Assembly: GCF_000002985.6 (NCBI RefSeq)
Contig: NC_003282.8
Span: forward strand, 3,472,001 to 3,536,000
DNA from: Caenorhabditis elegans
Lineage: Eukaryota; Nematoda; Chromadorea; Rhabditida; Rhabditidae
DNA length: 64,000 nt
Reading direction: 5' to 3'
Of this stretch, positions 35,379 through 53,572 are shown piece by piece. Under the pieces are notes generated by a model. It ran no database searches. It worked only from the letters and a program-made list of their open reading frames with translations, and was not told the origin of the DNA. How positions within the stretch are numbered: the stretch's first letter is position 1; each line of letters starts with the position of its first letter. The position numbers and the translations under genes were made by a program.

Positions 35379-38473
<3,095 letters not shown>

Positions 38474-41400
38474 TTAAATAGGAAGACCAGCAGTTCGTCG
38501 ACATTTCTGCATTGTTGCTCGGTAGATAAATTGCTCTCGGGACACGTCACGAACATGGCGGAGGTATTCGGCAAGTGTTATTTGGCGTTTTTTCAGTGAT
38601 TGACCTGAAATTTTGAAGATTAGGCAAAAAAAAAATTTCTCATAAATACCATAATTTTTTTTCGTTTTTTTTTTTGCTGGATTTCGGAAAAATTTTTACA
38701 CCGAAAATTTGCTGAAATTCCAATTTTCAGTCATTTTCAATAATTTTTCTATCAAATTTCCGCAAAAAAAAAACACTTTTGCTAAAATAAAACCGAAACT
38801 GATTTTTGAACGATTTCAACAAAATTTTGGAGTAAAAATGGCTGAAAATTGTTCAGAAACTTCCAATTTTTTGTAGTTTTTGTGAATTTTCTAGAATTTA
38901 AAGTCAATTTTAACTAATTTCTGTTTTTTTTCGGGGGTTTTTGAATGATTTGTAGTAGTGCTAATAGACGAAATCGTTGAAAAATTTCAGAAAAACGCTT
39001 TTAATTTGGCTTCAAATCTCTCAGAAACTTCGAAAAATCTCAACTTTAATTTAATTTTTTTGAAACATTTTCACTAGTTTTTCTTAATTTTCAACTTCTG
39101 CATTTTTTGAAAACAATTTTTGCACATTTTCCTCAGGATTGAGCAATTCCAGCTAGATTTTTCCAATTTTTCCCAACTTTTCGTTCCATACCAAGTGAAT
39201 AAATGACGTCATCACATGTCAAATCTTTCGCATAATTGAGCACAATTTGTCGGTGCAACGGAAAAGCGGCATCAATTGCCTCATCAATTGGTGGAGCATC
39301 AGTGCCTCCAGCGTCTGAAAGAGCTTTCGCGAGCTCTGCTTTCTTTGCCGTATAGATTTCACAGGCGGTCTGAAGGCTGCTCCGTTGAGTTTCGAGCTCT
39401 TCGAGCATTCTTTTCAGCTTTTGCTGTCCTTCACGAAGCTCGTCGCTCGTCGTACGGATTGATGCCATTTCTGCGCTATTTGTGCCTGAAAATTGAGAAT
39501 TTTTGAGAGGTTTTTTTCGGATTAAATAGAGAAAAAATACATTTCAAAAAAATTTTTCAATGTGGTTTTAAATGAATTTCAGCTTTTTAGAGACTTTTTC
39601 TTTGTGAATTTCCGCATTTTTAAAGCAAAAATCGAGTTATTTTAGTGAATTTCAGCTTTTTTCAGGCAAAGTCTGAGATTTTTCAGTGATTTTTCTAAAT
39701 CCTGACGCTGTTTTTAGTGAAAATTAAATAATTCAAGAAAAAAATTATTTTATTATTACATTTTTATTTAATTATTACTTTTTTGAGGTAAAACTGTTTT
39801 TTTTTTGAAATAAAAGTGATTTCTTCATAATTTTTTTGGGCAAAAAACTTGGAATTCAATTTTTCAAGTGAAAAATGCTGAAATTTCCGATTTTGTCCTT
39901 TTTCCAACGCACTCAGAGCCAAAAATGCTCAAAATCACCAAATCTGAGCAATTTTCGAGCCGAAAAATGGCTCCAAAATCAGAATTTCAATAATTTTCTC
40001 TAAAAACTGAAAATCGCAAAGTTTTTAAGGAAAAATCGAGCTTTTTTTTTTGTGAAATTTTCGAGGCTTTTTCAGTTTAAAAGGAGAAAAATTCAGAATT
40101 TTTGGGTTTTTTCAAGCGAAAATCGTGAGTTTTGAGAGAAATTGTGACTTTTTATGTATTTTTTCTAATTTTTAGTAAAAAAGATTTATTTTATTATCAT
40201 CAGAGTTTTTATCATTTTCGAGCCAAAAATGCTCAAAATCACCAAATCTGAGCAATTTTCGAGCCAAAAAAAATGCACCAAAACCAGATTTTCACCAATT
40301 TTTTCCTGTAAACCCATACCCATTCTCTCTCTGAGTTTCGCTCGAATTTTCTCCTCAACAGCCGACATAACTGATGCTCGAATTGTGTCGGCTTGAATGG
40401 TGCCACCACTACTGCTGCTCACAGATGTTTGAGCCGTTACAGGTGGTGGACGTGGTGGTGGTGGAGCAGGATTTGATGAAGCCGATGGATATGGAGATGC
40501 TCCAGAAGCTCCCATTGGATACGGTGTTGATTGGGGAACATTCATGTAGGGACTGGAAGAAGAAAAGAATTTATTGGAATTTTAAATATTTTCAGCGAAA
40601 AAATTATGGAATTTAGTAGTGTTTTTTGTCTTTTTTTTCAAAAATTTGGAAAAAATCAGTACTAAATTCTGTAAATTTTGTGTTTTTTTTCCTTATTTTT
40701 CTAGGAATTGTGCGAAAATTGGCGTTTTTAATGGGAAAAATTTATGAATTTTGGGCATTTTTGGTGCAAATGTTTAGAATTTTAACAAATTTTACATCGA
40801 AAACATCACTTTTAACGCAAAATATGGAAAATTTTACATTCTTAATGGGATTTTTTTCAATTTTTTGGTAAGTTTCAAATTGTTAATAGTAAATAAAAAA
40901 TTTTGTGTAAATGTTCGAAAACAAAACGCTTTTTTTGCGTTTTTTTTCCGGAATTTATAAATTTTTGGGGTTTTTTAAACTAAATTTCAAAGAATTTTCA
41001 AGTTTTCTAGGCAAAATTGTGGAAAATAGTGCATTTGTCAAATTTAATAGGGAGTTTTTTTTTGTTAGAAAATCTTCAAATTTAGTGTTTTTTTTTTGAA
41101 TTTCTGTAATTTTCAAAGAATATTGTGTTAACTTTTGTAAAATTTTCAAATTTTCAGATTTAATTTGGCGTTAAATTTTTCATTTTATGGGATTTTGCAT
41201 TTTTGTGGATCATTTTCAGGTGAAAATTCTCAATTTTCGGGTGAAAATTTCCCTTAACTTTCTTTTTTTTTCAACTTTTCAGTACTAACTTATATCCCAT
41301 AGCCCCTGCCGATGGGTACGGCGTAGAGCTCGGCGGGTACGGAGCAGCTCCGGAGCCCGTTGGATATGGAGTTGGCATTGTTGGCTGTGAAGATGGATAT

Positions 41401-42553
41401 GGTGTTGGTGTTGAAGATGCAGATGAGCCAGCCGATGGATTTGTTGCTGAAGCGTTGGTTGCCGAGTTGGCTGCAGATCGGGCAAAAACTGGACATTTCT
41501 CTTGGAATACCATTGCCATCACGTGAAAAATGGCGGAAAATTAGATTTTTTTTAATATGAAAATTTGAATTTTCGATACTTTTTGTCGATTTTCATACCA
41601 AAATTGTGGCAAAATTTGAAAAAAACCGTAAGAAAATTCAATTTTTGGTGATTTTTATTGAAATTTCTGCACTTTTTGGCTTAAATTGTCGGTTTTCAAT
41701 AATAAATGGGTTTTAATTGAACCAAAATTTGAGAAATTAGGCGTTTTCCGGGAAAAAGTGGTAAGAAAATCCAATTTTTTTGGTGATACAAATTAAAACA
41801 GAGAAAATCCGAGATTTTCATTGAAATTTCGGTACTTTTTGGCTCAAATTGTTGTTTTTCCGACCAAAATTGAAGTTAATTTGCTGAATTTTCAGCCGAA
41901 TATGAAATTCAGGTAATTTCTAGTTCGAAATTCGAGCAAAAATGAGAAATTTGCTCAAAATGCATGAAAAATCACATTTTTCAGCTCAAAACTGGCTGAA
42001 AATTGCCAAATTTGGCTGAAAATCAGCTTTTCGGGTCAAATTTTAGCTAGAAAATCGATTTTCTCAGTCTTTTTTAAAATTTTTTTATTTCAAGGTACTC
42101 ATCTGAAGAAGTCCACTGAGATCATATCCTGGAAATCTCCACTCGTTGAGGTACGGTAGAAATACTTTTCCTTCCTTGTTAACGTGCTCCGATTCCTTAA
42201 TTTTATCAAAAAATTTTTTTCTTCAAATTTTCCCACTGATAATAATAAGTGACTAATACCTTAATAACCATCGTTGAAGTTGGATTGACGTAACAAATTG
42301 GTGCATAATATGGATGTGTATCCCATAGGTATACGGTAACCGGAATATTATAACATGCGCCTTTATAATATACTGGAATTGTGCCTTTCAGCCGAAATGC
42401 GGTACGACGTTTTCCGTCTGGAAACATAAATGTGTCGGTGCCCGGCGAGAGATCTTTGAACTGGCTCAGTGCTCCGATTATGTCTTTTTTCGCAGAATCT
42501 GCGTATTTTCCACCGGCACGTTGCAGGCACTGTTGTACCTGGTGGGCCGACAT
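38474..42553 (-). CDS. tsg-101: TSG-101, ESCRT-I subunit (425 aa)
   Basis: ESCRT-I component that binds ubiquitinated cargo and PTAP-type motifs for multivesicular body sorting. Exons (minus): 42553-42260, 42195-42103, 41522-41290, 40552-40320 (40314 is also possible), 39485-39192, 38604-38474, giving 425 residues. Residues ~1-145 are a UEV domain (VYYKGACYNIPVTVYLWDTH, PYYAPICYVNPTSTM, PYLNEWRFPGYDLSGLLQ) lacking the E2 catalytic Cys. A Pro/Tyr-rich linker (PTPYPSSQPTMPTPYP) follows, then a coiled coil (LREGQQKLKRMLEELETQ) and a C-terminal steadiness box (LAEYLRHVRDVSREQFIYRA). The exon 2/exon 3 junction needs an AT-AC intron, described separately. Confidence 0.94.
41523..42102 (-). other. 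Apparent AT-AC intron (intron 2 of tsg-101)
   Basis: Minus strand: the exon ends CTTCTTCAG and the intron begins ATGAGTACC. The intron ends TTTTTCAC and the next exon begins GTGATGGCAATGG. Except for the first base (A for G) and last base (C for G), both sites are perfect U2-type worm consensus (CAG|GTGAGT, TTTTTCAG|G). Reading across gives SGLLQVMAMVFQEKCPVF, which aligns with the conserved UEV end of animal Tsg101. No GT-AG pair gives that protein. Confidence 0.75.
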
Positions 42554-43713
42554 GAGGTAGCTGAAAATATCGATTTTTCGGGGGAAAATTTGAGGTGAAA
42601 ATGTGGAAAATTACGTTAAAAATGAATGAGAATTGACTTTTTTTTTGGTGAAAATTAGTTGAAAACTCGAAAAATATGCTTTAAAAAATCTATAAAATGT
42701 CGAGAAAAGTGAAGAAAAAAAAATGATTTTCTGCCAAAAAATCCCAAAATTTTCACGAGAATTGCAGAAAATCATGGGAATTTCTTGATTTTTTCGATAA
42801 ATCTACAAAAACCAGAGAAAATGAGGAAAAAAGTTTGAGTTTTTGGCAGAAAATAATAAGAATTCTATTGAAAACAAGGAATTTCTGGATTTATCTCATC
42901 AAAAATCCAAATTTCGGCAAAAATTAGCAAGAAGCCAGCAAGAAGATTTTTTCGATTTTTCGTGATACATTAGCGAAAAAAAAACAGAATTTCGACGAAG
43001 CCTAGCAAGAAATCTTTGTAAATTAGAAGGAAAAACAGGATTTTGTGCTGATTTTTAGTGAAAATCAGCCAAAAATAGCAAAGAATGGCGGAAGTACTAC
43101 TGAAAATCAGAAATTTCTCGATTTTTTTTAATCCGCGAAATCCCGAATTTCGACAAAATCTAGTAAAAAATCCCCTAGAAAAAGCAATGAAAATCTCAGT
43201 TTTTTGCTGATTTTCTCAAAAAAAATCAACAAAGAACGGAGTATGAGTAATGGAGCATCGGTGGAAAAATCGAAGCCTCTAGAATTTTCTAGATTTTCGT
43301 GAAAAATCAGCTAAAAACTCAAATTTCGGGACAAATTCACCAAAAATAGCAGAAAATGGCGGAAGCACTACTACTGTACATAAGGATTTTCTAAATTTTT
43401 CATGAAAAATCCGCGAAATCCGGAATTTCGATGAATATTAGTGCAAAATCTCCGAGAAAAAAGCAATGAGAATCTCAATTTTTTGCTGATTTTTCTCAAA
43501 AAATCAGCAGAAAAAACGGAGACTGTCATCTTATGATTATTTCCTTTCTTGATGAATCATTGTTTGAAATACCGACACACCACCCGGTGTGTGTTGCGAA
43601 ATAAACAAATTATTGTGTTCTTTTTCAATATAAACACAGCAATACCAGTTGACCGCGGGCGGTTTTAAACTAAAAAAATCCAATCGGAAAAAGATGCGGG
43701 AAATTCGAAAAAT
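42554..43713. other. Upstream of tsg-101, no gene seen
   Basis: AT-rich low-complexity sequence with many near-repeats of CGAAATTTTGAC... and GAAAATCAG. It contains CACCACCCGGTGTGTG at about 43579 and no supported exon. Confidence 0.45.
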
Positions 43714-50800: not shown

Positions 50801-53572
50801 CAGAAACTATTATATATCTATTTATATCTGAAAAATTTGAAAAATAATCAAAATTCAGTTGAAATTTAGAAATTTCACTGCAAAACCTCTGAAAAAGCTG
50901 TAAAATGCGCGAAAATCCCCACAAAAAAAAAGCCAAAAACCCCTTAAAATCCTTATTTTTTTCCAGAAACGTCGCCCCAAACCTCGAAGCTCCAGAAGGC
51001 GCCGAAGTGCTCGACGCCGCGGGAAAGCTCGCCCTTCCCGCCGGAATCGATGTCTACACTCAGGTCACCGATTCTTCCGTCGATGATCTCTCGACTGGCT
51101 GTAAATCTGCAATCGCTGGCGGTACCGGAACCATCGTTGAAGTCGTTCGGCCACGTGGCGCCGAATCGGTGGTCTCGGCTGTTAAGCGGGTGAAAAATCA
51201 ACTGGAAAAGTCTGGAATCTCGTGCCACGTGGCACTTTCTGTGGCGATTACGGATTTCTGTGAGCAAGAAATGTCGGAGCTCGTGAAAAACGAAGGAATC
51301 AATAGTTTTGTGCTCGACGGTGTCTCCCTGACAGACGATAAGCTCCTTGAGCTCTTTGAGCACGTAAAACGGCTCGGAGCCCTAATCCGTGTAGTCCCGG
51401 AGAACAAGTCGATCGTCGCGATGCTGGAGAAAAAGATGCTGAAGCTCGGAGTCACTGGGCCCGAAGGCTTCCCACAGTCGCGGCCTGAAAGCCTGGAAGC
51501 TGATAGGGTTAGCGGAGTCTGTGTACTCGGGAATCTGGCTTCCTGTCCGATTTCCATTGTGCAGGTCTCGTCAGCAGACTCTCTGGCGGCGATAGAGAAG
51601 GCCCGGGCTTCAGGAGCTCTGGCTCACGCTGAGATTGCATCGGCTGCTGTGACGGCTGATGGCTCGGCACTTTTCAGTCAGGATTTGAGATTTGCGTCGG
51701 CTCATCTGACGGATGTTCCACTGAGACGTGGGGCTCCGGATCGGATGATCGGAGCACTTTCGACGCAGCCTCTGGTGGTTTGTACGTCCGGACATCGGCC
51801 GGTCAACTCGGCGACCAGAGTAGCGGCCAAGGATTTTGCCATCGCGCAGAAGGGATCTACGGGTAAAAATTGAGATATTTTGCAATTTTTTTGCAAAAAA
51901 AAAATGACGGATTTTGTTTAATTTTCGTGTTTTTTGCCAATATTCCAAAATTATTTTCCACAAAAAATCCCGGAAATCCCCTAAAATTTCATGTTTCTGA
52001 ATCCCCGGAAGTGATTTATCTAATTTCGAAATTTTCACATTTTCTAGTCCCCACTGTAAAAAAACGCTTATTTCCGAGATTTCAGATCACCGAGAATAAA
52101 TTTCCACAAAACTTAACAGAGAAGTGGGCGGGCCTTCACAGGCCCCGCCCACAAAATGGACAATTTTGCAGTTTTTCTCTCAAAATTGAAGAAAAACTTG
52201 AATTTTCTCGATTGTTAAAATTTTAGCGACATTAAAGGCGCATAGAAAGTGGCCACGCTCACAAAATGGACAATTTTCGATTTTTCCTCAAGAACGGAAA
52301 AAAAATCGAAATTTCTCAGTTTTAATGGCTTAAAATCAACATTTAAAGAAAAAATCGTTTTTTTTTTTTTTGCAGGAGCCGAAGAACGCATGGCAGTCGT
52401 ATGGGAACGGGCGGTACGAAGCGGTCGAATCGATGCGATGCGTTTCGTGGCGGTCACCTCAACGAACGCTGCGAAAATGTTCAATATGTACCCGAAAAAG
52501 GGCCGAATTGCAGTCGGCGCCGACGCTGATCTCGTAATTTGGGATGCCAGTGGAAAGCGAGTCCTCGAGTCGAGCCGAGCACAGAGCTCACAGGAGAATT
52601 CGATGTACGACGGGCTCACTGTGCATTCGGTGGTGACGGCGACGATTGTTGGCGGAAAAATTGCCTATCAGAATGGAGAAGTTCGGGAGGCACCGGTAGC
52701 CGGAGGTTTTCTGCGTCTCTCGCCAAATTCTCCCTATCTCTTCAGTATGGTTGGGCAGAGGGATAAGGTAAGCAGAGTGTAGTAATGTAAACGGCATTGA
52801 GAGTAGCGAGTGGTGTCTGGCCGCGTGGCGCAATGGATAACGCGTCTGCCTACGGAGCAGAAGATTGCAGGTTCGAATCCTGCCGTGGTCGAAACTTTTT
52901 TGTGGGGTCTTCGATCACGATTTGGACTTTTTATTTTTCTAAATCAGCTGCAAATGTGCTTTGTGACGACATTTGTGCCTGAAATTGTATTACAACTGAT
53001 AATTTTCTCAGAAAATTGAATTTTTCAAAACAAAGCTTTTTTTTTTGGAAAAACTTTGATAAATAATTTGAAAAAAAGTTGTTTTTTCCGAAGTTTTCCA
53101 AAAATTTACTTTTTCTGGAATTATTTTATGAAAAAAATTTTGAAAAATTGATTTTTCCGCTTATTTCGAAAAACCGAATTTTTTCTTAAATTTTCAAAAT
53201 TTTACTTTAAAAATTGAGTTCCCAAACAATTTTTAATAAAAATGTACCTTTTTTGAGATATTTTGAAAAAAAGTTTTCAAAAAATAAAAAAAAAATCCTT
53301 TCGATTTTTTTTCAAAAAACGGCAGGCAGGCATGGCGAAATATCCCGCAAAAAAATCTAATTTTTCTCGTTTTACAGTTCGCCAACGTGGAGCGTGTCGA
53401 ACGAGAAGCCTCCTCACAACAACAAAAACCCCAACAAAACGGTCACCACAAGAATTCGGGAGATTTTGATCGAAATCGCACCAAAGTAATGGAATCTTCC
53501 ATCGATTTTGGCGGCTCCGCGGCGAATCGGCCCAGGAATCCACCCGGCGGACGGACTACAGGGTTTTGGTAG
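44886..53572 (+). CDS. unc-33: UNC-33, CRMP/dihydropyrimidinase-like axon guidance protein (854 aa long form)
   Basis: Neuronal CRMP-family protein that organises microtubules and polarised sorting in axons. Exons 44886-44926, 44978-45138, 45193-45377, 45440-45505, 46075-46165, 46275-46495, 47456-47772, 50967-51862, 52376-52767, 53378-53572; all phases agree, 854 residues, the length I recall for the long isoform. The N-terminal ~330 residues are UNC-33-specific: Ser-rich and then acidic. The CRMP core starts at MSILLVKNAQIVND, a natural start of the short isoform, and runs through GIDVYTQV (no HxH zinc ligands, so not an active hydrolase), GAEERMAVVWERAV, AVTSTNAAKMFNMYPKKGRI and VGADADLVIWD. 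The tail is Gln/Asn/Gly-rich, ending GGRTTGFW. The frame stays open upstream of the ATG to an acceptor-like TTACAG at 44820, possibly a trans-splice site. Confidence 0.95.
49217..49242. repeat. (CA)n microsatellite
   Basis: GTGCACACACACACACACAC run in the long unc-33 intron 7. Confidence 0.9.
49310..49790. repeat. Imperfect tandem repeat, GAGCACTTCCGGGTGTCAATT unit
   Basis: At least six copies of GAGCA..T..GGGTGTCAA(A)TT, about 70-110 bp apart (49320, 49395, 49522, 49610, 49702, 49762), in unc-33 intron 7. Each is followed by GCTGCTC(C)TGGAGCAT-like sequence. A decayed minisatellite, or possibly spaced protein-binding sites near the short-isoform region. Confidence 0.55.
49944..49960. repeat. 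Poly-G tract (17 G)
   Basis: Run of 17 G in unc-33 intron 7. Confidence 0.9.
50084..50330. repeat. Dispersed GC-rich repeat
   Basis: TGGCCTTCCTCATTGCATTT ... GACAATCGCCTGGCGGACAA ... CACGCAACGCGCCATAAATC. The same order of blocks occurs at 62750-62950 (GACAATCGCCTGACGGACAA), and part of it, inverted, at 22530-22875. In unc-33 intron 7. Confidence 0.65.
51910..52260. repeat. Dispersed repeat copy in unc-33 intron 8
   Basis: TTCGAAATTTTCACATTTTC, AGTCCCC(A/G)CTG, AGTGGGCGGGCCTTCACAGG and AAGGCGCATAGAAAG...GGCCACG recur in the same order and strand at 60580-61100. Function unknown. Confidence 0.7.
52819..52891 (+). tRNA. tRNA-Arg (anticodon ACG)
   Basis: 73 nt with a full cloverleaf. The acceptor GGCCGCG pairs with CGTGGTC (two G-U pairs), followed by discriminator G. 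D arm GCGCAATGGATAACGC; anticodon arm TCTGC-CTACGGA-GCAGA with ACG; T arm GCAGG-TTCGAAT-CCTGC. A box TGGCGCAATGG and B box GGTTCGAATCC are good. ACG is read as ICG and decodes CGU/CGC/CGA. It lies within the last intron of unc-33, on the same strand, with a TTTT terminator at 52896-52899. Confidence 0.96.

Follow-up and report, generated by a model that had tools for sequence, protein, structure and literature searches.

A probable AT-AC intron of the U2 type in the Caenorhabditis elegans gene tsg-101

U2-type introns that end in AC exist (PMC10853781; PMC2831892), and those with AT-AC ends have been proposed to descend from U12 introns (PMC2831892). AT-AC introns are described as poorly recognised by the U2-type spliceosome in the available text of PMC7367187 and in that of PMC10853781, where the statement concerns U12-type ones. 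In human U2-type AU-AC introns, the 3′ end is trailed by conserved out-of-frame AGs, and the AG-less 3′ splice sites of RBFOX2 and CNBP minigenes are independent of the downstream AG (PMC10853781, as far as its accessible portion goes). For C. elegans, Iwata and Gotoh (2011; PMC3033335) counted 59 AT-AC introns, of which at least 42 were judged real, and which are probably spliced by the U2 machinery. A table in PMC7367187 puts AT-AC ends at 0% of the annotated U2-type introns of this species; on the accessible parts of the two surveys, this value and the 42–59 introns fit poorly together. The degree of rarity implied in the original prediction for the locus described here was somewhat overstated, given at least 42 C. 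elegans cases judged real in the available text of PMC3033335.

Intron 2 of tsg-101 is, in our opinion, a well-supported single case of this recognised rare class and represents no new kind of splicing; judging from the DNA and the protein it encodes, the probability that it is a U2-type AT-AC intron is about 0.9. With the C. elegans introns described in the accessible part of PMC3033335 it shares the species, the ends and the proposed handling by U2. The U2-type AT-AC introns of sodium channel genes, as presented in the available text of PMC2831892, resemble it in their ends, in the G at +5 and in their removal by the major spliceosome, but they belong to another gene and another phylum, whereas the host of tsg-101 is thought to be free of the minor spliceosome. 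The five non-U12 AT-AC introns counted in another nematode, Trichinella spiralis, resemble it in their ends and in not being classed as U12-type (PMC2846911, in part), but T. spiralis retains U12 snRNAs. U12-type AT-AC introns share just the terminal dinucleotides with tsg-101 intron 2, and their donor and branch motifs differ.

The DNA analysed, referred to below as the window, comprises 64,000 nucleotides (bases 3,472,001 to 3,536,000 of contig 4), and genome-wide searches covered 100,286,401 bases in 7 contigs. The minus strand of the window carries a locus which we take to be tsg-101 in view of the human TSG101 chain and Pfam matches, and whose gene code is presumably C09G12.9. According to the gene model and its translation, six exons join into a frame of 425 codons plus a stop:

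42260 to 42553, minus strand: exon 1, coding part from the ATG (gene model, translation; Pfam UEV match)
42103 to 42195, minus strand: exon 2, with 3′ end CTTCTTCAG (gene model; matches Pfam UEV profile positions 75–110)
41290 to 41522, minus strand: exon 3, with 5′ start GTGATGGCAATGGTATTCC (VMAMVFQEKCPVFAR) (gene model, human alignment)
40320 to 40552, minus strand: exon 4 (gene model)
39192 to 39485, minus strand: exon 5 (gene model)
38474 to 38604, minus strand: exon 6 including the stop codon (gene model; Vps23 core domain at residues 353–416)

The 425-residue product matches the Pfam UEV profile PF05743 at 148.4 bits, reaching the profile end, and the Vps23 core profile PF09454 at 68.2 bits. 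Twelve solved sequences match the protein; the human TSG101 chains among them span both the UEV and the Vps23 core parts, and the yeast Vps23 chains match more weakly than the human ones. The presence of both domains, together with the human matches, therefore identifies the six-exon gene, by sequence, as encoding TSG101 of ESCRT-I. Across the whole genome, the only UEV matches found are two exons of tsg-101. A match to Pfam DUF6212 at residues 266–341 was disregarded, its 19.3 bits lying below the cut-off of 26.4. A search for relatives of tsg-101 in viral contigs and in genome contigs returned 8 and 33 pattern-matching stretches, respectively, none of which encodes a relative. A trans-splice (SL) acceptor upstream of the ATG is typical of worms, and a candidate for one, ATTTTCAG, lies at 42561–42568 on the minus strand, 7 bases short of the start codon. 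The minus strand also carries, roughly 1 kb beyond the 3′ end of tsg-101, a frame read by eye at 37400–37493 that begins with an ATG and resembles Rac/Cdc42-type GTPases; it presumably belongs to ced-10. A tRNA-Arg (ACG) gene is located at 52818–52892 on the plus strand.

By their splice letters, 4 of the 5 coding introns of tsg-101 have GT-AG ends, the exception being intron 2, for which the following elements can be distinguished:

41523 to 42102, minus strand: intron 2, AT-AC, 580 nt (letters, gene model, join scoring)
42097 to 42102, minus strand: 5′ splice site ATGAGT, preceded by CAG in exon 2 (letters, U1 duplex prediction)
41540 to 41544, minus strand: candidate branch site CTAAT, with branch A at 41541, position −19 (motif match only)
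41523 to 41530, minus strand: 3′ splice site TTTTTCAC (letters, gene model)

On the minus strand, exon 2 and intron 2 meet as CTTCTTCAG and ATGAGTACC, and intron 2 and exon 3 as CATTTTTCAC and GTGATGGCA, so that the intron with its flanks reads CAG|ATGAGT...TTTTTCAC|GTG. The intron length leaves a remainder of 1 when divided by 3, and its first frame holds 10 stops. While CAGATGAGT occurs once in the window, counting both strands, TTTTTCAC occurs 26 times, and the acceptor letters alone are therefore unremarkable. The 3′ site is pyrimidine-rich, as would suit U2AF, and differs from the worm consensus form TTTTTCAG at the last base only. Intron 2 looks like an ordinary worm intron except at its first and last bases, as the original prediction had noted.

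Homology supports the junction. Worm residues 15–144 align without a gap to the UEV domain of human TSG101 (1kpp and others), 15 to 15 and 144 to 144, with the junction between residues 129 and 130; of the 15 residues that directly follow the junction, 8 equal the human ones by alignment count. The match exceeds chance: when all 127,946 nine-codon stretches of the window, both strands counted, were compared with the human post-junction peptide, 12 reached this score, the junction stretch itself among them. In a scan of possible joins, the end of exon 2 was shifted by −45 to +60 and combined with every exon 3 acceptor lying 30 nt or more beyond it and no further than +60; each resulting protein, truncated at its first stop or after 175 residues, was scored against the human stretch, and joins giving fewer than 110 residues were dropped. 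This left 63,971 joins, 268 of them with accepted ends (65 GT-AG, 17 GC-AG and 186 AT-AC). The proposed AT-AC pair scores 358, the highest of the 268, followed by 333 for the next AT-AC pair, 329 for the best GT-AG pair and 319 for the best GC-AG pair. It is also the only one of the 268 scored pairs that leaves the length unchanged, matching human TSG101 free of gaps; a frame running through exon 3 without a stop is found in 8 of them.

Shifting both ends by −15 to +15 bases around the junction yields no other GT-AG, GC-AG or AT-AC ends. Among the same-length joins in this range, the nearest score is 355, for the ends TG-CG, GA-GT, AG-TG and GT-GA; homology alone separates AT-AC from these by only 3 points, but we consider such ends less likely than AT-AC. 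The AT and AC ends are unambiguously placed: no shifted junction yields the same mRNA, because exon 2 and the intron end in different bases and the intron and exon 3 begin with different ones. Moreover, the last AG within the intron ends 56 nt before the intron end and, in the exon 3 frame, a TAA lies between this AG and exon 3; a protein that keeps VMAMVF is therefore impossible from an AG acceptor. The first AG past the AC ends at +22 in exon 3 and would not keep the frame if joined to the AT donor, in line with the out-of-frame AGs that follow human U2-type AU-AC introns according to the available text of PMC10853781. A search of the C. elegans genome for a retrocopy, using 120 nt of joined exons, gave 2 matches, each covering one side of the junction at tsg-101 itself, which is neutral. 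We infer from these alignments and letters that cells use the AT-AC junction. The original prediction had the intron begin with ATGAGT right after CAG, at positions that agree with the letters; it expected the protein across the junction to keep the UEV end, which the ungapped human alignment over residues 15–144 bears out; and it expected a length of 425 residues, equal to the computed one.

Taking the start of worm U1, AAACTTACCTG, from the genome, 8 of the 9 positions of CAG|ATGAGT pair in the predicted duplex (one as G-U), with +1 unpaired and a G at +5; apart from its first base, the site is thus a U1-pairing one. The predicted pairing energy is −5.2 kcal/mol, within the range of −2.4 to −5.9 for the four other coding introns of the gene, and with G at +1 it would become far stronger (−11.9). 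The U12-type 5′ consensus RTATCCTT, as given in the available texts of PMC2846911 and PMC10853781, is matched by ATGAGTAC at 2 of 8 letters. The U12 branch motif TCCTTRAY is absent from the entire intron, and the best of the windows that begin within its final 45 nt agrees at 5 of 8 letters and is the 3′ end itself.

The genome contains 12 matches to the Rfam U1 model and 22 to the U2 model, 21 of the latter above the cut-off. The models for U11, U12, U4atac and U6atac gave 0 matches in the genome, with 14 control genomes likewise silent for these minor families, so that the negative result does not by itself demonstrate absence. PDCD7 (PF16021) proved uninformative, with no candidate in the genome and none in the 14 controls. 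The literature points the same way, as far as the accessible parts of the papers go: C. elegans is described as having no U12 introns (PMC2846911; PMC2831892; PMC7367187), 1 of 116,241 introns was called U12-type and regarded as a false positive (PMC7367187), nematodes are counted among the lineages that have lost the minor spliceosome (PMC10639083), and U11, U12 and U4atac are seemingly missing, U6atac not being named in the available text (PMC3033335). The prediction of a U2-type AT-AC intron is thus upheld by the ungapped homology, the top rank among 268 pairs, the 13.1-bit loss on GT-AG splicing discussed below and the lack of U12 motifs. Its premise that C. elegans has no minor spliceosome agrees with these surveys and with the unmatched minor snRNAs beside matched U1 and U2, the controls being silent as well.

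Other accounts of the same letters have to be weighed, two of which involve an alternative pair of sites:

42093 to 42098, minus strand: GT donor GTACCT, starting four bases inside the AT-AC intron (join scan)
41501 to 41510, minus strand: AG acceptor GTATTCCAAG (CCAAG ending at 41501), 22 bases into exon 3 (join scan, gene model)

Were only this pair used, with donor CAGATGA|GTACCT and acceptor ATTCCAAG|AG, the product would have 419 residues, VMAMVFQE being replaced by MK. The pair is present, preserves the frame through exon 3 and is the best frame-keeping GT-AG pair, and the predicted U1 pairing of its donor (−3.9) is near that of the AT donor (−5.2). However, the six residues it removes from within the UEV domain lie where the human and worm proteins align ungapped; the UEV match drops to 135.3 bits and extends no further than profile position 111 of 121, as against 148.4 bits to the end, a loss of 13.1 bits; and the tract GTATTCCAAG is poor as a worm 3′ site, for which the consensus is TTTTCAG. 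Exclusive GT-AG splicing is therefore improbable, and we think that the 419-residue product is at most a minor form. Such a minor in-frame form beside a main AT-AC product would be compatible with our preferred explanation, since each of the two pairs preserves the frame, and human RBFOX2 and CNBP minigenes do use AG-less 3′ sites alongside an in-frame downstream AG (PMC10853781, in part). The human minigene sites are, however, not presented as AT-AC pairs in the available text of that paper, and the alternative worm acceptor ends 41 nt past the candidate branch A, which appears far for a worm intron; we consider this mixed outcome rather unlikely.

The AT-AC ends could also be sequencing or assembly errors in a GT-AG intron, given that a single base change at each end would restore a consensus worm intron. 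This would require two independent errors at precisely the positions known to co-vary, in a genome considered to be of reference quality, and is highly improbable. Least credible of all is removal of the intron by an unnoticed U12-type spliceosome. AT-AC ends are familiar from U12 introns, but here the donor fits at only 2 of 8 letters and the branch motif is absent, the minor snRNAs and PDCD7 are unmatched in the genome (as in the controls), and the accessible parts of published surveys report no U12 introns (PMC2846911; PMC2831892; PMC7367187; PMC10639083).

We return to the U2-type AT-AC reading. Most likely, the major spliceosome removes intron 2, with A(+1) and C(−1) matching each other. 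In this scheme, U1 would pair with CAG|AUGAGU on either side of the mismatched A at +1, U2AF would occupy the UUUUUCA tract, and U2 would probably take the branch A at −19, a candidate based on its motif. The first splicing step would go ahead with A replacing G at +1. The first and last bases of an intron contact each other; in the second step, A and C would make this contact in place of the usual G and G, the A/C pair being tolerated and one altered end by itself presumably not. The joined mRNA would then encode an intact UEV domain within the 425-residue TSG-101.

If the junction is used as we infer, nature provides here a clean experiment on the rule that the two terminal bases of an intron have to be compatible. 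C. elegans suits such a test, being genetically easy and having a splicing background in which the minor spliceosome should not confuse the outcome. Intron 2 of tsg-101 is also a caution for gene predictors that bar AT-AC ends in worms. The public gene model may already include the AT-AC intron, as the length of 425 residues given in the original prediction suggests. Among the papers listed in literature searches, none links tsg-101 with AT-AC introns; in one of the two papers that carry the code C09G12.9, the portions examined make no mention of splicing, and the accessible parts of PMC10932544, PMC13149111, PMC7072748 and PMC3584512 yielded nothing on tsg-101 intron 2.

Fold prediction places one further element at the 3′ splice site:

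41515 to 41534, minus strand: possible six-pair hairpin GCCATTTTTCACGTGATGGC, spanning intron and exon, with the AC|G junction in the loop (predicted fold)

A hairpin as good is found at 1,794 of 127,880 random junctions (1.4%). Within the window, it is present at 0 of 175 TTTCAG and at 2 of 86 TTTCAC sites, these sites being unfiltered for real acceptors, the measure having been chosen after the fold was seen, and the tsg-101 acceptor being presumably one of the 2. A role of this predicted hairpin in splicing is speculation. A still broader picture can be offered as a tentative and rather doubtful one: the sole detected UEV domain, in an ESCRT gene, would depend on the major spliceosome removing an AT-AC intron in an animal lineage that has lost the minor one, perhaps aided by the hairpin and with an in-frame GT-AG pair as second choice. 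Contact between the two intron ends would lock both in their present state, such that altering either alone would break splicing or give the form shorter by six residues.

Intron 2 taken with 20 nt on each side folds more stably than 20 shuffles (z −3.80); repeats inside the intron may account for this stable fold, from which we draw no conclusion. At 41583–41881, the intron contains degenerate direct repeats, the longest of 69 nt with 77% identity and starts 163 nt apart, as well as inverted repeats.
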